Assembly: GCA_013298695.1 (NCBI GenBank)
Contig: JAAFIS010000003.1
Coordinates: forward strand, 124,001 to 188,000
Length of the DNA stretch: 64,000 bases
Source of the DNA: Betaproteobacteria bacterium
Lineage (GTDB): Bacteria > Pseudomonadota > Gammaproteobacteria > Burkholderiales > Casimicrobiaceae
Direction of reading: 5' to 3'
The position numbers and the translations under genes are program-made. This document shows, one piece after another, positions 2,558 through 57,637 of the stretch; positions within the stretch are counted from its first letter, which is position 1, and each line of letters starts with the position of its first letter. A model generated the notes under the pieces. That model did not search any database. It was not told the DNA's origin and saw only the letters and a program-made list of their open reading frames with translations.

Positions 2558-2703
2558 ATCCGCTTGGAAGATTAGCCGACAATACAAATATAAACCCGCA
2601 AATAGAAAGATTAAGGCGTATTTGTCGTGCTAGTCGAAAATACACGAAAAATCGTTTTAGCCCAGATTGAACAGGCGCAACATCGGAACAAGTAATACCG
2701 CAC

Positions 2704-10292: not shown

Positions 10293-10376
10293 GCCCACAT
10301 TGATCGGGCAAAACATGCGTTCATATAATTTACCGATAAATTGAATAATCGAGCTTATCGCCCAATTTAGTTGGGC
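10293..10376. repeat. Paired-palindrome element, copy A
   Basis: Two GCCC-N9-GGGC palindromes, 10293-10309 and 10360-10376, have centres 67 bp apart, joined by a 50-bp AT-rich spacer. The right palindrome extends to a 15-bp stem (10351-10365 with 10371-10385, 5-nt loop; arm GAGCTTATCGCCCAA), strong enough for an RNA hairpin. Located between the TonB receptor end and the SDR start. Confidence 0.8.
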
Positions 10377-10443
10377 GATAAGCTCTTATGTTGCTAGCGC
10401 AAAAAATCTAACTTAGCAGCGACTCAGCTTGATCGGCGCACGA

Positions 10444-13150: not shown

Positions 13151-13201
13151 ACTAAATAGGGTAACAAACGTGTCAAGTAGCGATCAGCTTTAGAGATTAA
13201 C

Positions 13202-13285
13202 GCCCAGCTTAGGTGGGCGACAAAGGATTAAACGTTGTTTATCAATAGTGAGTAAATACGTCATCCAAGCCCAGTTAAATTGGGC
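13202..13285. repeat. Paired-palindrome element, copy B
   Basis: GCCC-N9-GGGC palindromes at 13202-13218 and 13269-13285, centres 67 bp apart, 50-bp spacer of low GC. It lies between the gamma-carbonic anhydrase end and the start of the DUF2946-like gene, 52 nt upstream of the latter. Confidence 0.8.
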
Positions 13286-13351
13286 GATTAAAGAAAATAC
13301 TGAATAGATTTCTGTCCGGAAAGTGATTCGCAAAAGAAGCCACGCCTTGCC

Positions 13352-17630: not shown

Positions 17631-18530
17631 CTAAATCCTCCGGATGATTTTCTCGCCGAACAATCCTTCGGGGCGAACTAACAGAAATACAAGCGCGAGC
17701 ACGTAGGGGAACCATCCTTCAATGCCGCCGCCGACATAGGGGCCGATATAGACCTCAGCCAGTTTTTCTGACGCGCCGATGATGAGACCGCCGACGATCG
17801 CGCCAGGCACGGAGGTAAAGCCACCGAGGATTAACACTGGAAGGGCCTTGAGCGCAACGAAAGTCAACGCGAACTGCACGCCATTGCGCGATCCCCAAAG
17901 CAATCCTGCGACAAGAGCAACGAATCCGGCAACGGCCCACACAATCGCCCACACATGTTGCAATGGAATGCCAACAGAGAGCGCCGCTTGATGATCGTCA
18001 GCCACTGCGCGCAGCGCGCGACCCACCTTAGTTTTGTTGAAAAGGATTGCGAGCGCAGCGACGAGGATCGCGCAGATGATCGCAGCGATCACGTCGAACT
18101 GCGAAATCAGCATTCCCGTTTTGTCCATTACGAACTCGATCGGCACATCTTGAATGCCCAGATCAAGCCTGCGAACATTCGACCCCCAAATGAGCTGCGC
18201 GAGCCCCTCAAGGAAAAATGTGAGACCAATCGTCGCCATAAATAGCGTAATGTCGTGTTGATTCACGAGCGGTCGCAATACGATGCGTTCAGTGGCGATG
18301 CCGAGCAGCACCATCACCACCATCGTGATCGGAATCGCGAGCCACAGCGACAATCCGAATTCTTCTTTGAGCCCCACGGTCGTCAAGGCCGCGAAAAAGA
18401 CCATTGCGCCCTGAGCGAAATTGAACACGCCGGAGGCTTTGAAAATCAACACAAAGCCAAGTGCCACCAGCGCATACATCACGCCTGAGAGCAAACCGGC
18501 AATTAAAACTTCGAAGAAAAATTGCATCAA
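17631..18530 (-). CDS. livH: ABC transporter permease, LivH type
   Basis: 299-residue inner-membrane permease of the LivH family. LLSGVMYALVALGFVLIFKA and the following FNFAQGAMV are diagnostic, as is the EAA-like region GGFTSVPGAIVGGLIIGASE. About eight hydrophobic segments are visible. The start overlaps the livG stop by 4 nt (ATGA), which shows translational coupling within the transporter operon. Confidence 0.9.
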   Translation of the reverse strand: MMQFFFEVLIAGLLSGVMYALVALGFVLIFKASGVFNFAQGAMVFFAALTTVGLKEEFGLSLWLAIPITMVVMVLLGIATERIVLRPLVNQHDITLFMATIGLTFFLEGLAQLIWGSNVRRLDLGIQDVPIEFVMDKTGMLISQFDVIAAIICAILVAALAILFNKTKVGRALRAVADDHQAALSVGIPLQHVWAIVWAVAGFVALVAGLLWGSRNGVQFALTFVALKALPVLILGGFTSVPGAIVGGLIIGASEKLAEVYIGPYVGGGIEGWFPYVLALVFLLVRPEGLFGEKIIRRI

Positions 18531-19318
18531 TGCGCTCCCAAATAGGCTTTGATCACTTCCGGATTGCTGCGCACTTCATCCGGCGTACCGTCGCCAATTT
18601 TCTTGCCGTAGTCAAGCACCGCCACGCGATCTGAAATATCCATCACCACGCCCATGTCGTGTTCGATCAAGACGATGGTCGTGCCGAATTGATCGTTGGT
18701 ATCGAGCACGAAGCGACACATGTCTTGCTTCTCTTCGACATTCATACCGGCCATCGGCTCGTCAAGCAAAAGCATTGAGGGTTCGGCCGCTAGAGCGCGG
18801 GCAAGCTCTACGCGTTTTTTTATGCCGTACGGCAAACGCGCGACGGGGGTCTTGCGAACATGTTGGAGTTGCAAAAAGTCGATGATCTCTTCCACGACGC
18901 GACGGTTTTCCATCTCTTCGCGACGCGCGCGACCGATCCAAAGCGCTTGTTCAACAAACGTTGATTTGATTTTGAGGTTGCGACCGGTCATGATGTTGTC
19001 GAGAACGCTCATGCCGGTAAACAGAGCGATGTTTTGAAAGGTACGCGCGATGCCGCTTTTCGCTGCCGCATGCGTATCCATATCTTTGCGCTGCTCACCG
19101 CGATAGGTAATCGTGCCTTCTTGCGGGTGATACACGCCGTTGATCACGTTCAACATCGAGCTTTTGCCCGCGCCGTTCGGGCCAATGATCGCGCGGATCT
19201 CGTGCTCGCGAACATCGAACGAAATATTGGTGAGCGCTTTCACGCCGCCGAATGAGAGCGATACGTTGTCCGCTTTAAGAATCACATCGCCGATTTTTCT
19301 TTGCGCGGAATCGCTCAT
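18527..19318 (-). CDS. livG: ABC transporter ATPase, LivG type
   Basis: 263-residue ATPase, partner of LivF. Walker A GPNGAGKSSMLNVINGVY (about 42), signature region LPYGIKKRVELARALA (LivG-type degenerate LSGGQ), Walker B MLLLDEPMAGM and the switch histidine in LIEHDMGVV are all present. The start overlaps the stop of the acyl-CoA ligase gene by 4 nt. Together with LivHMKF it makes a complete importer. Confidence 0.9.
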   Translation of the reverse strand: MSDSAQRKIGDVILKADNVSLSFGGVKALTNISFDVREHEIRAIIGPNGAGKSSMLNVINGVYHPQEGTITYRGEQRKDMDTHAAAKSGIARTFQNIALFTGMSVLDNIMTGRNLKIKSTFVEQALWIGRARREEMENRRVVEEIIDFLQLQHVRKTPVARLPYGIKKRVELARALAAEPSMLLLDEPMAGMNVEEKQDMCRFVLDTNDQFGTTIVLIEHDMGVVMDISDRVAVLDYGKKIGDGTPDEVRSNPEVIKAYLGAH

Positions 19319-21258: not shown

Positions 21259-21594
21259 TGCGCTACATCCTCCTTATTTGCGGTGCATGGTAGCTCTTCA
21301 TGGCCGCAATTCGTTCTTCGACCTCAGCTAGCATGTGCCACGGTCGACGACGCTAAAAACAAACCCGACCCTGCGGTCAGGAATACGCAGTCTAAGTCTT
21401 CTATAAGACTGTTGCCACTAGGGTTTACCAAGGCGCCGTTACGCGCGAAATTGTTCTTAAAACTATTTGACCGTATCGCCTGATGCGCTGGGAGAAGCGG
21501 AGTTTCGGGGAATCATCAAGAGTTTCTGTCAACGTTCGTATCGCCCAGTAAAATCGGGGTTGTCAAGAAATAGCTGTGTCCCACACACCACGCA
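21259..21594. other. Divergent intergenic region with hairpin and degenerate paired element
   Basis: 336 nt with no gene. It must hold the promoters of the ligase-liv operon (minus) and birA (plus). AGTCTT-CTAT-AAGACT at 21395-21410 is a small hairpin. A degenerate member of the paired-palindrome family is present: GCCC-N9-GGGG at 21543-21559, with TATCGCCTGAT at 21474-21484 on its left, the same left motif as the degenerate copy at 35179. No promoter could be assigned with confidence. Confidence 0.5.
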
Positions 21595-24343: not shown

Positions 24344-24369
24344 ATTGTTAGACAACTCTCGATATAAAC

Positions 24370-24453
24370 GCCCGATATTATTGGGCGATACGTTGTATAT
24401 GTGAAATATTCAACTTAACATGTAAATTGCCGTATCGCCCAATTAAATTGGCC
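24370..24453. repeat. Paired-palindrome element, copy C
   Basis: GCCC-N9-GGGC at 24370-24386 and GCCC-N9-GGCC at 24437-24453, centres 67 bp apart with a 50-bp AT-rich spacer. The inner flanks are also complementary (ATTGGGCGATACG with CGTATCGCCCAAT), so the whole can fold as one 13-bp-stem hairpin. Lies between two plus-strand genes. Confidence 0.8.
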
Positions 24454-24486
24454 GATAGTCGCTAAAGCCTAAAGACTGTTTTCATC

Positions 24487-28435: not shown

Positions 28436-29068
28436 GCGAATCGACAAAAACGCGCGAACTATCTGACGCCGTCGCGCGCGGGGCGTTTTCGCGAGGACCT
28501 GTTCGCGCGAATCAATTTGTGGAGTTACACGCTACCCGGGCTCGCGGAGCGCCGCGAAGATATTGAGCCCAATATTGACTATCTTTTGTCGTTAACGCCC
28601 AAATACATTGGGCAACAAGCGCGATTTAATGTAGAAGCGAAAAAGCAATACATGGCGTTTTCATCTTCGGAAGACGGGGCGTGGACGGGGAATTTTCGCG
28701 ATCTTTCCGCGAGCGTGACGCGCATGGCCACACTCGCCGAAGGCGGGCGGATCACAGAAGCCGTCGTTGCCGCAGAAATCGAGCGCCTGAGATGGTTGTG
28801 GGCGAAAGCAAATCTCAGCGCGCGAACGAGCGAAATCGATTTGAGCGTGTATCTTGATGAGGCAGCGCTCGGCGCGCTAGATCGCTTCGATCAGTTGCAA
28901 CTCGAAGCCGTGATTCGCGTGTGCCAACAAAGCCGCACGTTATCGGATGCGGGTCGCAAACTCTTCAACGTATCGCGCAACGAGCGCAGTGAAGTCAATG
29001 ATGCAGATCGGCTGCGCAAGTATTTAGCGCGGTTTGGATTGACGTTTGGCGCCTTCGTCGACTGCTAG
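28432..29068 (+). pseudogene. rtcR: rtcR remnant: 3' part of the sigma-54 activator, frameshifted
   Basis: From about 28453 one frame reads RELSDAVARGAF and, after a shift, REDLFARINLWSYTLPGLAE and on to 29068, which matches the AAA+ end and C-terminus of RtcR (GNFRDLSASVTRMATLA follows). The shift is explained by one extra T in TTTT at 28486-28489. Everything upstream (the CARF-like sensor domain, Walker A/B and GAFTGA) is missing and replaced by the 507-residue gene. No function is expected; a short helix-turn-helix protein could still be made from internal starts. Confidence 0.85.
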
Positions 29069-31156: not shown

Positions 31157-31303
31157 TGCGGTCGCCTAGGGCCGAAAATTTTGCTTCTGTATTTACAACA
31201 AATTCGCGGGTAGCTCTATAAAGTACGGATAGGATCGCTATTTGGCACTTTTTCGAAAAATTGCGTCATGGGTTGATAAGCCCAATAAATCGGCGTTCTG
31301 AAC

Positions 31304-33376
31304 GTGGTGCTGGAGATTGAAGTGCGGTGTTTGAATCAACGATTTCTAAGCGCGCTTTCGGTGCGGAATTTATTCTGTGGGCGTGTCAAAGTGGAACTAC
31401 ACGCAGTTGGTACGGTGTGTATGTTTCTCGTGCTAGCTGCGCTCACGCAAACGGCAGCGCTCGCTCAACCGGCCGCACCGCCGCCTTCGCCTAAATCCGC
31501 CGCTGACATTTCAGTAGCAGATTTTTTTCGCTTACCGCGTTACGCGCAAATGTCCATATCGCCCGATGGAAAACATTTGGCTGCAATTGCGCCGGTCAAT
31601 GGCCGCGATGCGCTCGCGGTGATTGCTCTTGAAAACCGAAGCGCAACGGTAGTTGCGAATTTCAGCAGAACCGACGTCGGTGAGTTTCTTTGGCTAGATA
31701 ACACGCGGCTTTTCTTTCGCACGGTGAATCGTCAGCTTGACACCGGCACGCCGCAGTATCTCGCGAGTTTTGCGGTGGATATTGATGGCAAAAATTCGCG
31801 CAATCTTTCGCCAGATCGTCGTCGCATTCGCGTACTGAGCACCACTCGCGATGGCTCTGGCGATTTGATCATCGGTATGTTCGCAGAGAGTCGCTCAACG
31901 GAGGGCGTGTATCGACTCGATACCCGAACGGGCCGTACGAAAATACTCACGCATAAAAATCCAGGTGATGTCACGGCATGGGCACTCGATCGCAGTCTCG
32001 TGCCCCGCGCTGCACTTCGCTTAGAGCCACGCGAATCACCCAACAAGTTACGTAGACAAACTTTATGGTTTCGCGATAAAGCCGATGACGAATGGCAACA
32101 AATTGCGGCAACGGATGATGAAAATGCGGTCATTCGACCTATCGCGTTCGACGCTGATGGCGAAACCCTAATCGTCGCGACGCGAGCGGGAAAAGATCGC
32201 ACTGCGCTCTATAAATTCGATCCAAAAAAGCAAACACTGGGTGAATTACTCATCGCTCATCCGTGGCTTGATGTTTCGGGCGGGCTGATTCGCTCGCAAG
32301 GCGCGGGCGAGGTGCTGGGTGTTCGCTACAGTGACGATATGCCCCGAACGCAGTGGTTTAGTCAACGCTACGCAGAGTTGCAAGCGGCGGTCGACAAAGC
32401 GCTTCCGAATACTGCGAATACGATTACGCCTGCGGAAGAGGGAGCCAAACATCTGGTCGTATTTTCGCAATCAGCCACTGATGCTGGTGCCTATTTTCTA
32501 TTTGACGTTAATCCGCGAACGCTCGAGAAAATCGGGGCGACGCGCGAGTGGTTGCCGCCTTCTTTGATGGCGGAGCGGCGATTTGTGATGTACACCGCGC
32601 GCGATGGGCTCAAAATTCCTGCGTGGCTCACGTTGCCGCGCGGCGTTGACGCGAAACAGTTACCGCTGATCGTTCACGTTCACGGCGGTCCGTGGGTACG
32701 TAGTTTTCATGGCGTTCAATGGGGGCGGGCGCCCACCGCACAGTTCTTCGCGTCGCGCGGGTATGCGGTACTTGAGCCCGAACCGCGCGGCTCTCTCGGC
32801 TTCGGCGCAAAGCACTATCGCGCGAGCTTCAAGCAATGGGGGCTCGCGATGCAAGATGACATCACCGATGGCGCGCTGCATTTGGTGAAAGAAGGCATCG
32901 TCGATAAAGCGCGTATGGGTTTGTTTGGCGGTAGCTACGGTGGCTACGCGGTGTTGCAAGGCTTGGTGAAAGATCCCGAATTGTGGGCTGCGGGCAGTGC
33001 GTTTATCGCAGTGACCGATCTTGAATTGCTGCAATCGGTGACGTGGTCTGACACCGCGCGATTGACCGATTACTTCGAAACCGATTTCAAGCGCCGCGTT
33101 GGTGATCGCGACGCGGATCGCGCGCAATTCGATGCGACATCGCCCGCGAAAAACGCGTCAAAGATTCGTGCGCCGCTGATGCTAACGATGGGTGCACAAG
33201 ATGAGCGCGTCCCCATCATTCATGGCACAACGATGCGAGACGCGATGGAAAAAGCGGGTAAGTCCATCGAATATCACGTGTACGTCGACGAAGGACATGG
33301 CTTCAATGCGAACGAAAACATCGTGGATTTTTACGCGCGAAACGAACGTTTTTTTGCGAAGCATTTACGCAAGTAA
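31304..33376 (+). CDS. S9-family peptidase (prolyl oligopeptidase-like), exported
   Basis: 690 residues as read from the GTG at 31304. Hydrophobic CMFLVLAALTQTAALAQPAA (about 39-58) is probably the signal peptide, so the true start may be the ATG at 31421 or a nearby codon; no ribosome site decides. A beta-propeller begins with AQMSISPDGKHLAAIAPVNG. The C-terminal alpha/beta-hydrolase domain carries the serine in GLFGGSYGGYAVLQG (about 544), the aspartate in GAQDERVPI and the histidine in VDEGHGFN. It would cleave short peptides in the periplasm. Confidence 0.85.
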   Translation: MVLEIEVRCLNQRFLSALSVRNLFCGRVKVELHAVGTVCMFLVLAALTQTAALAQPAAPPPSPKSAADISVADFFRLPRYAQMSISPDGKHLAAIAPVNGRDALAVIALENRSATVVANFSRTDVGEFLWLDNTRLFFRTVNRQLDTGTPQYLASFAVDIDGKNSRNLSPDRRRIRVLSTTRDGSGDLIIGMFAESRSTEGVYRLDTRTGRTKILTHKNPGDVTAWALDRSLVPRAALRLEPRESPNKLRRQTLWFRDKADDEWQQIAATDDENAVIRPIAFDADGETLIVATRAGKDRTALYKFDPKKQTLGELLIAHPWLDVSGGLIRSQGAGEVLGVRYSDDMPRTQWFSQRYAELQAAVDKALPNTANTITPAEEGAKHLVVFSQSATDAGAYFLFDVNPRTLEKIGATREWLPPSLMAERRFVMYTARDGLKIPAWLTLPRGVDAKQLPLIVHVHGGPWVRSFHGVQWGRAPTAQFFASRGYAVLEPEPRGSLGFGAKHYRASFKQWGLAMQDDITDGALHLVKEGIVDKARMGLFGGSYGGYAVLQGLVKDPELWAAGSAFIAVTDLELLQSVTWSDTARLTDYFETDFKRRVGDRDADRAQFDATSPAKNASKIRAPLMLTMGAQDERVPIIHGTTMRDAMEKAGKSIEYHVYVDEGHGFNANENIVDFYARNERFFAKHLRK

Positions 33377-35156: not shown

Positions 35157-35178
35157 AGACGATGGTAGCGTTGCGCGT

Positions 35179-35265
35179 TATCGCCTGATCAAAGCAGGGG
35201 TTCGGCGATAAATGCGCTTACTCAATAAACAGTAAATATGTATTAATCACCCAATTCATTCGGGC
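35179..35265. repeat. Degenerate paired-palindrome element
   Basis: ACCC-N9-GGGC at 35249-35265 with an AT-rich stretch on its left and TTATCGCC (35178-35185)...GGCGATAA (35204-35211) beyond. It resembles the paired-palindrome family but the left part is rearranged and the spacing differs, so membership is tentative. Confidence 0.45.
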
Positions 35266-35279
35266 ACGCATGCTAAGTT

Positions 35280-36839
35280 CTATTTGCTTTCTATCGACGA
35301 TTCCAAATGCCGCCTCTGCCGCGCAGGCGTCGCACGTTGTGCGTTCACTGGGAAGTGATCGCCTACCGTCAAACCACGATGCATGAACGATAGCCGTCCT
35401 TTTGAGCCGCTTTTTTGATAGTCGGCGAGGATTGCTGCTTGCGCAGTTTGCTCCGGTTCACCGCCTTGTTCGACGAGCCAGCGATAGACCAAATCGAAGA
35501 GTCGTTCGAGCGCGATTTGATGCGTTGCACCCGTTTCTGCGAAGATCCAATCGGCTAGCGCGAGGAAGCGCTCGAACGCGGAGGTTGGCAATTCGCGCAG
35601 CACGAGCGGCAGCGTGTTCGGAAAGCGGCCGCTATTGCCGATCAAATCCCAGAATCGCGCAAAGCGATTGATGCGTTGCAGATCAGCGAAGTTGAGTTCG
35701 TTATTGGAAAGAATGTTGTACGGTGCGTCCGGGTTGTAGCGCATCGCAAAATTTTCGGTGTGACGAATGATGGGCGTACCGCGCAATCGCTTCAACACGC
35801 CGACTTGAATTTCATGCGGTCCGAGTCGCGCAAGTGTGTCAAAGCCCTCGCCAAAACTCGCAAACGTTTCTCCCGGCAAGCCCGCGATCAAATCAACATG
35901 CATGTGGGCATTTGAGTTTTCATGAAGCCAACGAATATTGTCTTTCGCTTTATCGTTGTTCTGTTTGCGAGAAATGTGGGCTTGCACATCCACATTCCAC
36001 GTTTGAATGCCGATTTCAAATTGCAGCGTGCCTGCTGGAAACTTGGCAATTGTTGCCTTCAATTTCTCCGGCAAATGATCGGGCACGAGTTCGAAGTGTG
36101 CGAAGCAGGGATCGTCGGGTTTCGCCTCGATGCGTTCGAGGAAAAAATCGAGGATCGCGAGTGACACTTTGATGTTTAAATTGAACGTGCGATCAACGAA
36201 CTTGAACGTGCGCGCACCGCGATCGTAGAGCTTCGCCATCTCAGCGAGGAAGCGCTCGGTGTTAAACGGCACAGCCGTTTTATCGAGTGCGCTCAAACAA
36301 AATTCGCATTTGAACGGACAACCGCGCGAGGCCTCGACATACAAATTTCGCTTCGCGATGTCTTCGTCGGTGTAGTACTCGTACGGCAATTTAGTTTGAT
36401 CGAGGTCAGGTTCTTCGCCAACATGCACTTTCATTAGCGGACGTGGGCCGTGAATCAGCGCGCGAATGAGCTTGTTAAACGTCACATCGCCCGGCCCGGT
36501 GATCACGTAATCGGCGAGGGAACAAACACGTTGTTCGGGAATCTCAAAACTCACCTCGGGGCCACCAATCACGACTTTAATCTGAGGCGCGACGGCTTTC
36601 AGCATCGCAATTAGTTTGGTCGTCTCGTCCACGTTCCAGATGTACACGCCGAACGTCACCACACGCGGATTCTCAGCAAGAATTTGCTCAACAAGCGCCT
36701 CGGTTTTCGTGCCAATCACGAATTCCGCGATCTTTGCGTCTGCTCGCAATTCATCATCGAGGTTGGCGAACAAATAGCGAATGCCGAGCGAGGCGTGCGC
36801 ATATCGGGCGTTGAGCGTGGAGAGAACGACGGAAGGCAT
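35280..36839 (-). CDS. B12-binding-domain radical SAM protein (DUF4080 type)
   Basis: 519 residues. The N-terminal half has a cobalamin-binding-like Rossmann domain (VVLSTLNARYAHASLGIRYL, VVIGGPEVSFE); the radical SAM cluster motif is RGCPFKCEFCLSALD (about 171-185), with three cysteines C-x3-C-x2-C. The C-terminal DUF4080 part is complete. Such proteins are iron-sulfur SAM enzymes of unknown substrate; methyl transfer to an unreactive carbon is typical for the B12 class. Monocistronic, convergent with DUF1289 copy 2. Confidence 0.85.
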   Translation of the reverse strand: MPSVVLSTLNARYAHASLGIRYLFANLDDELRADAKIAEFVIGTKTEALVEQILAENPRVVTFGVYIWNVDETTKLIAMLKAVAPQIKVVIGGPEVSFEIPEQRVCSLADYVITGPGDVTFNKLIRALIHGPRPLMKVHVGEEPDLDQTKLPYEYYTDEDIAKRNLYVEASRGCPFKCEFCLSALDKTAVPFNTERFLAEMAKLYDRGARTFKFVDRTFNLNIKVSLAILDFFLERIEAKPDDPCFAHFELVPDHLPEKLKATIAKFPAGTLQFEIGIQTWNVDVQAHISRKQNNDKAKDNIRWLHENSNAHMHVDLIAGLPGETFASFGEGFDTLARLGPHEIQVGVLKRLRGTPIIRHTENFAMRYNPDAPYNILSNNELNFADLQRINRFARFWDLIGNSGRFPNTLPLVLRELPTSAFERFLALADWIFAETGATHQIALERLFDLVYRWLVEQGGEPEQTAQAAILADYQKSGSKGRLSFMHRGLTVGDHFPVNAQRATPARQRRHLESSIESK

Positions 36840-41264: not shown

Positions 41265-42194
41265 ATGCCGCAGCGCTCACAACAACACTATCCACCGCTC
41301 TCGCCCTGTCCTGTAGCGATTGCGGCGCGACCGTCGCCGCGCGAGGGCGCTCAGGTGCGCGATATGCGAGAGCCTGTCGAGCGATTGGCAAGAATCCTAA
41401 AAGCTCAAGGCTACAGGGCGATAATCGAAGAAAATACAGCAATCGATATCAAAAATAAATCGATTGATCGCCTTGACTCTAAGGGCATCGGGGAACAATG
41501 CGGATTGGTGATTGCCATCGGCGGCGACGGCACACTGATCTCTGTTGCACGACAGCTCGCGATGTACGACGTTCCGATTGTGGGCGTGAATCAAGGGCGG
41601 CTGGGTTTTTTAACCGATCTTTCGCTCGCCAACGTTGAAGATTCGATTCCTCGAATTTTGCGCGGCGAATATCGTGAGCAAAAACGTTCGTTGCTTTCGG
41701 CCTCGGTTGAAGCGGGCGTGCATCACCTCGCTATGAACGATGTCGTTGTCAATCGCGGGGGCGCAACTACGCTCGTTGATCTAGAAATTTCGCTCAATGA
41801 TCGTTTCGCTTACGGCTTCCGCGCAGACGGCGTGATCGTTTCCACGGCGACAGGTTCAACCGCCTACGCGCTTTCCGCAGGCGGCTCGATCATTGCACCG
41901 TCGGTCAATGCGTTCACCATCGTGCCGATTGCGCCACACGCACTCACCAATCGCCCCATCGTCGTCGCTGATGATTCGGAAATTCGCATCACCGTCGCCC
42001 GCGCACGCGAAGCGATTGCAAGTATCGACGGCCATCACTACATTCCGCTTAAGGAAGGCGACGCTGTGACCTTGAAACGCGCTGACGAACGCGTGCGCCT
42101 CTGGCATCCGCTCGATTACGACTACTACCACACGCTGCGCGAAAAATTGGGTTGGACTGAGACGCCCGAAGGTCTTGCCGTTTCAAAAAAATAA
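41265..42194 (+). CDS. nadK: NAD kinase
   Basis: 309 residues. IGGDGTLISVARQLAMYDVP (about 84-103) is the catalytic GGDG motif, GVNQGRLGFLTDLS, AMNDVVVNRGG and TATGSTAYALSAGGS are the further NAD/ATP motifs. The first 30 residues are Pro- and Arg-rich and less conserved, so the start could be slightly further in. Divergent from hrcA and 15 nt upstream of recN, a gene order frequent in betaproteobacteria. Confidence 0.92.
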   Translation: MPQRSQQHYPPLSPCPVAIAARPSPREGAQVRDMREPVERLARILKAQGYRAIIEENTAIDIKNKSIDRLDSKGIGEQCGLVIAIGGDGTLISVARQLAMYDVPIVGVNQGRLGFLTDLSLANVEDSIPRILRGEYREQKRSLLSASVEAGVHHLAMNDVVVNRGGATTLVDLEISLNDRFAYGFRADGVIVSTATGSTAYALSAGGSIIAPSVNAFTIVPIAPHALTNRPIVVADDSEIRITVARAREAIASIDGHHYIPLKEGDAVTLKRADERVRLWHPLDYDYYHTLREKLGWTETPEGLAVSKK

Positions 42195-44809: not shown

Positions 44810-45745
44810 CTAGTATCCGATGCTGCGATCAACAACGCCAGAAACAGCCTCGCCACGCTCCATCCGTTCAATCTTTTCAACAATTTGCGCGCAGGCATCT
44901 CGAATCGGCGTGGTCGCGGCGATATGTGGCGTCACGATCACATTCGGATGCGTCCATAACGCGTTGTCTTTCGGTAACGGTTCCGCGTCGAACACATCCA
45001 GCAACGCGCCATCGAGTTGACCGCTTTGCAGCGCCGCAAGCACGTCGGCTTCGATCATGTGCGCACCACGACCAGCGTTAATCAGGAATGCGCCGCGAGG
45101 CAATGCAGAAAGAGTTTTCGCGTTGATGATCCCTCGCGTGGACTCGGTGAGTGGCAGCATGCAAACGAGCACATTCGTTCCTCGTAGAAACCTGTCGAAT
45201 TCGCTTTCACCAGAGAAACATCTAACGTTGGAAACATCGTGCCGTGATTTTGACCAACCCCGAACCGCATAGCCAAACGCCGCAATTTTCTTCGCAACGT
45301 GGCCGCCCATTTCGCCAAGACCCATCACGCCCACGACAGGTCGTTGCAGGTTCGCGCGGTCTTCATGCTGCTGCCACATGCGTTCACGCTGCTGCGCGCC
45401 GTATACGCGCATGTGCCGATGATGGTGGATCACGCCATAAAGCGCGTACTCGGCCATCTGCTGCGCCATGCCCGCGTCCTCCAGTCGAATGATCGGAATG
45501 TGGGCGGGAACGCTTGCCATCGAGAGGATCGCATCGACCCCGGCACCATAATTAATCGACCCTTTTAATTGGGCGTTAATCTCGAAAAGCGCCCTTGGCG
45601 GTTTCCACACAATTGCGTAGTCCGCCCCAATTGCGTTGGGCCATGAATCGTAAAGCCATTCAGGTTTTAGGCGACGCAATTCATCGATGATGGCGGGAAC
45701 GACATCGATGCCGGTGGATTGAACGACGATGCGCAGCGCGCTCAC
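44810..45745 (-). CDS. GhrA-like 2-hydroxyacid dehydrogenase
   Basis: 311 residues of the D-isomer-specific 2-hydroxyacid dehydrogenase family, close to glyoxylate/hydroxypyruvate reductase A. DYAIVWKPP and SINYGAGVDAIL in the N-terminal part, the NAD motif GVMGLGEMGGHVAKKIAAFG (about 137-156), RGAHMIEADVLAALQSG and TPHIAATTPIRDA with the acid-base histidine are clear. It overlaps liuD by 4 nt and precedes liuE by 14 nt, so it is embedded in the leucine genes, though no reductase of this type is known in that pathway. A paired palindrome (45558-45641) lies within the coding sequence. Confidence 0.88.
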   Translation of the reverse strand: MSALRIVVQSTGIDVVPAIIDELRRLKPEWLYDSWPNAIGADYAIVWKPPRALFEINAQLKGSINYGAGVDAILSMASVPAHIPIIRLEDAGMAQQMAEYALYGVIHHHRHMRVYGAQQRERMWQQHEDRANLQRPVVGVMGLGEMGGHVAKKIAAFGYAVRGWSKSRHDVSNVRCFSGESEFDRFLRGTNVLVCMLPLTESTRGIINAKTLSALPRGAFLINAGRGAHMIEADVLAALQSGQLDGALLDVFDAEPLPKDNALWTHPNVIVTPHIAATTPIRDACAQIVEKIERMERGEAVSGVVDRSIGY

Positions 45746-52464: not shown

Positions 52465-52514
52465 AGCGAACCTTTCAACAAAGCGATACTCAACAGCTAA
52501 ATTTACTTCTCTGT

Positions 52515-52598
52515 GCCAAATCTTGCTGGGCAATAACGAAAACTATTTAGCTTTTCAATAAACATAAAAAATCAGCGCGTCGCCCGCATAAACCGGGC
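52515..52598. repeat. Paired-palindrome element, copy G
   Basis: GCCA-N9-GGGC at 52515-52531 and GCCC-N9-GGGC at 52582-52598, centres 67 bp apart, 50-bp AT-rich spacer. Lies upstream of the rhodanese gene and downstream of the SDR gene. Confidence 0.75.
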
Positions 52599-52632
52599 GA
52601 TAACGAACAAAGTCCATTAGTGATTTCACGGG

Positions 52633-57437: not shown

Positions 57438-57531
57438 CAGCGCAGTGTAGCGGGCGGGGTTTTGGATCGAGGGTTGCCTCAGTACGTAGCTAAAGAAGCG
57501 AACTCATTTCGAAACAACTTGAACGTAAAAA

Positions 57532-57615
57532 GTCCAGTTCAAAGAGGCGAAGAAAGAAAATCACACAATTACTGATAAACACTAGAAATACTCGCCTACC
57601 CCAATTAAAACGGGC
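57532..57615. repeat. Paired-palindrome element, copy H (degenerate)
   Basis: GTCC-N9-AGGC at 57532-57548 and CCCC-N9-GGGC at 57599-57615, centres 67 bp apart, 50-bp AT-rich spacer. It lies upstream of liuR and downstream of the DUF4337 gene. Confidence 0.6.
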
Positions 57616-57637
57616 GAAACGCAGTTGAGCTGTACAA

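Follow-up and report, generated by a model that had tools for sequence, protein, structure and literature searches.

The paired GCCC-N9-GGGC palindromes of this DNA are part of a larger, two-fold symmetric element of ~120–140 bp. The window examined here is the whole 64,000-bp stretch G000:C16:124001-188000, where G000 denotes the genome to which it belongs (4.08 Mb, 22 contigs). Comparison with other genomes of the same genus indicates that the element has a fixed geometry, is preferred as a whole dyad, is evenly spaced with genic copies filling gaps, keeps its position between near relatives, is gained or lost without insertion, switches the dialect of its arms, and is missing from one apparently new region. 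We propose, with a probability of roughly 45%, that a dedicated DNA-binding complex of dyad symmetry recognises the elements and marks or organises the chromosome at intervals.

Geometry of the dyad element

An earlier note on this DNA, made from the window alone, had reported five loci with palindrome centres 67 bp apart and at least six perfect palindromes within them. Both counts hold: the distance is exactly 67 bp in 5/5 loci, and six of the eight perfect GCCC-N9-GGGC palindromes in the window (0.87 expected) fall there. A perfect copy at 19166-19182 lies within an ORF (18527-19318, minus strand) and outside any element, close to the one chance match expected. With at most one mismatch per palindrome, 67 bp was the commonest distance below 300 bp in the window (6 pairs; the next, 129 bp, had 2). 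Under the same rule, 860,781 bases of G000 contained 29 pairs at 67 bp and also variants at 66 bp (6 pairs) and 68 bp (3 pairs); no other spacing up to 150 bp had more than three. Allowing up to three mismatches, the pair pattern matched 369 times genome-wide, and the reversed pattern 15 times.

The symmetry extends well beyond the palindromes, to a dyad of ~122–137 bp. In the dyad logo, conservation reaches ~61–68 bp on each side of a TCGA centre, and the order from the outside in is an outer AACAGCTTTT, the arm palindrome, an AT block and the TCGA centre, followed by the mirror image. The outer part, AACAGCTTT(T), lies ~50–61 bp from the centre, with conserved AGCTTT blocks ~55 bp out. The arm of G000, GCCCAATTNAATTGGGC, is centred 33.5 bp from the dyad centre, an A/T block occupies 11–15 bp, and the central sequence is TTATCGATAA. 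The spacer between the palindromes, previously described as not conserved, holds the AT blocks and the TCGA-centred dyad. The total information amounts to 46 bits in G000, 40 in G002, 78 in G005 and 90 in G012, whereas 12–14 bits would suffice to locate that many sites.

The whole dyad is strongly preferred, and half-elements are rare on their own. Among 509 matches to a half-model in samples from four species, 416 matched a full element in register, 85 matched one at a shift and 8 lay away from any; when apparent single halves were recounted, most proved to be the same full element matched again at a shift. Full elements with one poor half (score below 0) numbered 11/88 on contig C1 of G000, 5/77 in G002, 1/57 in G005 and 1/33 in G012.

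The window contains 12 elements (Table 1), scored at 26–78 bits with a profile trained only on contig C1, outside the window. The degenerate relatives noted earlier at 21474-21559 and 35179-35265 are true members, but five loci plus two relatives understates the total. The intergenic location assigned to the element does not hold for all copies: three lie within predicted coding sequence.

Table 1. Dyad elements of the window (window coordinates; bit scores from the C1-trained profile, threshold 10.8)
Element	Dyad	Arms	Bits	Setting and comparison
2575..2696	2635/2636		26.0	weakest of the 12; partial nhmmer match, 12.2 bits
10274..10395	10334/10335	10293-10309, 10360-10376	71.0	both arms perfect; intergenic, between two minus-strand genes
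13183..13304	13243/13244	13202-13218, 13269-13285	68.3	kept in orthologous G002 spacer
21457..21578	21517/21518		34.6	degenerate relative of earlier note; kept in G002
24351..24472	24411/24412	24370-24386, 24437-24453	78.3	kept in G002
28578..28699	28638		32.4	in predicted gene (28517-29068 +); G002 orthologue: element 3 bp off expected dyad, no gap
31194..31315	31254/31255		35.8	intergenic by script gene calls
35163..35284	35223/35224		27.7	degenerate relative of earlier note
41384..41505	41444		40.1	in NAD kinase gene (41364-42194 +; Pfam NAD_kinase); G002 orthologue: element 3 bp off, no gap
45539..45660	45599		43.5	in 2-hydroxyacid dehydrogenase gene (44810-45745 -; Pfam 2-Hacid_dh_C); G002 orthologue: 1 bp off, no gap
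52496..52617	52556/52557	52515-52531, 52582-52598	55.3	kept in G002
57513..57634	57573/57574	57532-57548, 57599-57615	57.6	kept in G002

Spacing and placement on the chromosome

Final counts were made with cross-validated profiles because self-trained profiles flatter weak matches, and the profiles were symmetric and of fixed width because growing nhmmer alignments inflated the model to 653 columns. The threshold exceeded the top score of the reversed sequence by 0.5 bit; for a symmetric profile, reversal and complementation are one and the same control, and with the threshold above it, zero control matches follow by construction. Over the 280,781 bases of C16 from the window start onward, the profile trained on C1 found 61 elements, or one per 4.6 kb, and the converse training found 85 in 400,000 bases. 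An nhmmer profile at 12 bits or more gave 174 matches in 860,781 bases of G000 and none in the same bases reversed.

The elements are spaced about twice as evenly as chance in four species (coefficient of variation, CV, of 0.42–0.62 versus about 0.96), in G005 only when a single 105-kb gap is set aside. The CV was 0.49 on C16 and 0.53 in the converse test, versus 0.98 for random placement. The largest gap on the C16 stretch was 8.7 kb (21 kb expected), and neighbours less than 2 kb apart numbered 10 and 7 in the two tests (21 and 29 expected). Placing elements at random within intergenic spacers gave a CV of 0.82–0.94, versus 0.45–0.61 observed at thresholds of 12 and 18 bits; at 25 bits one G000 stretch out of three failed to show significant evenness. 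G002 carries 77 elements in 400 kb (CV by halves 0.53 and 0.62), and contig C15 of G012 carries 25 in 280 kb (CV 0.42). For the 57 elements found in 800 kb of G005, the CV was 0.50 without the 105-kb gap and 0.99 with it; the second half gave 0.47, and the first 0.42 or 1.36 depending on whether the gap was left out or kept.

Placement relative to genes was assessed with gene calls from a simple codon-usage script rather than a standard annotation. By these calls, the 174 profile matches in G000 comprised 47 in predicted genes, 73 between tandem genes, 30 between convergent genes, 18 between divergent genes and 6 at stretch ends. Among spacers of 130–600 bp, an element was present in 20/27 convergent, 53/137 tandem and 10/56 divergent ones (convergent versus divergent, p = 1e-6), often just 3' of a stop codon (median 18 bp). 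This distribution does not fit the simple two-site operator that had been suggested: the copies number in the hundreds, are evenly spaced, and are scarce between divergent genes while enriched between convergent ones.

Genes are depleted of elements, with 33/150 lying well inside a gene versus 74% of random positions. The in-gene copies (17 on C1 and 16 on C16) sit in larger gaps and have more distant neighbours than random genic positions (gap and distance p of 0.009 and 0.0003 on C1, and of 0.002 and 0.001 on C16). They fill gaps between the intergenic elements, as if needed there.

The exceptional gap in G005 (G005:C1:110311-215434) spans 105 kb of ordinary G+C content (62.5%) without any element. 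Nine of the 10 long ORFs tested in it had Pfam matches, which include TraC, a TraG/TraD-type coupling protein, a Tn3 transposase, two helicases, a DNA methylase, DUF6079, a subtilase and an aminotransferase. To judge from these matches, the region appears to have been acquired and to serve conjugation and defence.

Distribution, arm dialects and persistence among relatives

By profile and pattern searches, the element is abundant in 15/17 genomes of one genus and was not found elsewhere as a family. Model R1 detected it in 16/17 genus genomes and in 0/28 others; the R1 tallies, counted on both strands, are lower bounds and reach at least 77 in 12 genus genomes. R1 understates G003, G007 and G012, where it missed most sites because their arms follow other dialects. 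A pattern demanding only the centre and outer parts, which can find only sites that keep both, recovered 168, 212 and 169 sites in these three genomes, bringing the element-rich genomes to 15. Overall it gave 2–212 sites in 15/17 genus genomes, none in G008 or G016, and one site in total across 43 genomes of other genera; the reversed control gave 1–2 matches in 7/60 genomes. G008 keeps few elements (three strong places), and the scarcity or lack of elements in G008 and G016 implies that the system is dispensable. These two genomes are the smallest of the genus (2.5–2.6 Mb) and also have no Y1_Tnp matches; genome reduction may have removed several systems from them at once.

An exact scan for GCCC arms with a TCGA centre across 84,980 species, a set from which records near the window's genome may be absent, returned 27 stretches. 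By profile, 16 of them, from four metagenome-assembled genomes named as Burkholderiales, Betaproteobacteria or Proteobacteria bacterium (JANXNO01, JAAFJI01, JAPUER01 and JAFEDD01), are members. Judged by eye, seven more resemble CRISPR arrays from unrelated bacteria, which mimic the pair pattern because repeat plus spacer measures 67 bp, and four look like chance. Outside the genus, GCCC pairs at 67 bp exceeded the reversed control in G036 (8 versus 0), G037 (20 versus 4) and G025 (16 versus 5); neither R1 nor the centre-plus-outer pattern matched in these three genomes.

Between species, the arms switch dialect genome-wide while the centre and outer parts stay. The arms of G012 and G007 are of the CGAC..GTCG type rather than GCCC..GGGC, those of G013 of the CGCATCCATGACGGGC type and those of G010 of the GCCTTATGAAATAAGGC type. 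Retention of the centre and outer parts emerges from the profile in G012; in G007, G010 and G013 it is partly built in, because the sites were fetched by a pattern that demands these parts. Many of the listed G010 sites have TTGA/TCAA at the centre.

Positions persist between near relatives while the sequence diverges, with weaker retention at greater distance. Against G002 (median protein identity 82%), the element is kept in 6/7 orthologous spacers and gained in 0/20 spacers without one; against G005 (69%), the corresponding counts are 2/9 and 0/11. Across six pairs of orthologous intergenic sequences, identity is 27% in columns outside the motif, close to what chance would give, and 45% in motif columns, with one-base shifts disallowed. 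The earlier note had proposed to look for an excess at 67 bp and for retention at orthologous sites; both were found, and retention was clear in G002 and weak in G005, which is more distant. The G002 orthologues of the three genes with dyads at 28638, 41444 and 45599 carry elements whose dyads lie no more than 3 bp from the position expected. When three genic elements were aligned with element-free orthologues, there were no gaps across the site (7/7 alignments gap-free in all), which implies that the element was gained or lost by substitution in these cases.

Candidate functions and comparison with known systems

The earlier note had inferred a structural or protein-recognised constraint. A genome-wide element with fixed geometry is real, and reading by protein is likelier than chance. 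The fixed ~120-bp two-fold arrangement and the concerted switch of one module point to a complex that recognises specific sequences and in which one or more DNA-binding domains evolve, and even spacing together with gap filling points to a chromosome-wide role or a drive process. In the reading that we favour, the complex would cover ~120–140 bp of a high-information site. A module whose specificity changes between species would read the arms at ±33.5 bp, and conserved parts would read or bend the TCGA centre, the AT blocks and the outer sequence. One complex per ~5–14 kb would mark or anchor the chromosome and leave few stretches of DNA far from a site, possibly by bridging DNA, insulating it topologically or attaching it to machinery of the cell. 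We infer protein readout, wrapping of the DNA and an architectural role in this scheme. More specifically, and more tentatively, the element may act as a chromosome ruler, in which a dedicated nucleoprotein complex would wrap or clamp the ~137-bp dyad every 5–14 kb and the sites would switch dialect together as the specificity of the reader shifts.

No reader protein was found among the candidate families examined (ParB/Noc, RAYT and gyrase). A ParB/Noc reading was rejected: in the 15 genus genomes searched (all but G015 and G016), no additional ParB-type protein tracks the elements. One ParB-type match is present in 11/15, including G008, and the extra matches in G004, G011, G013 and G014 do not follow the elements. 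The only Y1_Tnp match of G000 (locus L038:153-674, contig C1) is a RAYT-like transposase; it adjoins a 343-aa ORF that we take to resemble an IS110-type transposase.

The main rival is molecular drive of the uptake-sequence kind, which we regard as unlikely: cells would preferentially import (or package) DNA carrying the element, and recombination would spread it without any structural role. According to PMC7811141, the uptake sequences of Haemophilus and Neisseria are relatively even and are under-represented in new segments and coding sequence, and drive likewise predicts that sites are evenly spaced, arise in situ, form dialects and are missing from new DNA; a paper that it cites names dialects in its title. 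The traits present here include even spacing, depletion in genes, dialects and over-representation, and the element-free conjugative region, a single case, would correspond to absence from new DNA. The competence gene comEC is found in 17/17 genus genomes, but it does not discriminate because it also occurs in G008 and G016. Against this reading stands the strong preference for the whole ~120-bp dyad, with 8/509 half-model matches lying outside full elements, whereas the uptake sequences known so far are short and work singly. Our first reading, that the elements are preferred wrapping or cleavage sites of DNA gyrase (a type II topoisomerase), like BIMEs or the strong gyrase site of phage Mu, now seems improbable. 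The E. coli gyrase motif spans 130 bp and is symmetric about a 4-bp stagger (PMC6379681), which the present dyad matches with its TCGA centre, and the bias towards 3' ends and convergent genes also fits. The Mu site (AF083977) ranked 161 of 36,582 places with the A+T/G+C profile of G000, the dyad being best within 5 bp, but 327th to 18,861st with seven other profiles. Phase-only p values for Mu were 0.007–0.2 with all-position, no-centre and flank masks and 0.23–0.42 with the centre only; together with the low ranks they give gyrase weak support. In the flanks (18–66 bp) the period peaks at 7.25–7.5 bp rather than 10.75 bp, and a peak at 9.75–10 bp appears only over 0–68 bp. The arms are A+T-rich in G000 and G+C-rich in G012, and the arms of G012 have switched although its GyrA shares 97% identity with that of G005 over the C-terminal domain; this near-constancy of GyrA and the weak Mu test are why we lowered the gyrase reading. 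GyrA is also present and conserved in G008 and G016, despite their few or no elements.

Two further readings appear very improbable; of these, a REPIN and a two-hairpin RNA had been raised in the earlier note. One is a REPIN or other miniature mobile element, whose two inverted hairpins would be moved by a RAYT or similar transposase. Two inverted palindromes at a fixed distance in hundreds of copies would suit such an element, as would the occurrence of Y1_Tnp proteins in 15/15 element-rich genus genomes and in neither G008 nor G016. However, the Y1_Tnp proteins compared, one per genome from seven genomes with further copies of G007, G009, G010 and others left out, belong to unrelated clades (24–53% identity), and G005 and G011 share a dialect while differing in Y1_Tnp clade. 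A consistent RAYT was not seen in this comparison, three genic copies came or went without insertion, the spacing is even rather than random, and the orthologous intergenic pairs are dissimilar outside the motif. By eye, the consensus sequences of G000, G002, G005 and G012 have no GTAG/CGTC tag beside the palindrome; within the G013 arm itself there is a GACG, which reads CGTC on the opposite strand. Hairpin covariation is slight or nil. Inner pairs in the 67-bp G000 set match at 0.434, versus 0.434 under independence, and z ranges overall from −0.6 to 2.2 in G002, G005 and G012, whereas a wider, less well aligned G000 set lies 2–3 points above shuffles (z 2.1–3.7). The lack of excess pairing in the 67-bp set argues against the other reading, a two-hairpin RNA or bidirectional terminator acting in transcripts, which has in its favour the position close 3' of stop codons, the enrichment between convergent genes and the long perfect hairpins formed by some arms (for example, within 10349-10385). 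No Rfam family matched in the window at gathering scores, and an RNA or terminator would leave the even spacing and the in-gene copies unexplained.

If the preferred reading of a chromosome-marking complex is right, the element would offer a tangible way to study how the chromosome of a bacterium can be divided at regular intervals; a ruler of the kind suggested above would be a sequence-addressed counterpart of regularly placed insulators, and the arm dialects would amount to a natural experiment in co-evolution between one reader and hundreds of sites. If the element is instead an uptake signal, it is a two-fold symmetric one far larger than those we are aware of, and we know of no uptake signals in this bacterial group. 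Searches of open-access papers revealed no bacterial element that combines these traits.

Several known systems share part of the set. The parS/Noc and matS sites are likewise dispersed palindromic sites that organise the chromosome, and ParB/Noc specificity can diverge, but those sites are single and short. The gyrase motif, BIME-2 and the strong Mu site resemble the element in their ~130-bp extent, their symmetry about 4 bp and their intergenic 3' bias (PMC6379681); the element differs in its strong arm readout, its GyrA-independent dialects, the lack of 10.75-bp phasing and its even spacing. REP/REPIN-RAYT systems, as presented in PMC3733652, also consist of paired inverted palindromes in many, mostly intergenic copies, whereas the present element shows no tag in the four-species consensus, no conserved RAYT among the proteins compared and no insertion, and is evenly spaced. 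The USS and DUS of Pasteurellaceae and Neisseriaceae share its many and fairly even copies, scarcity in genes and new DNA, and species dialects. Unlike these short sequences, the present element is a dyad of 120–137 bp, preferred whole, built of separate conserved and variable modules and placed 5–14 kb apart.
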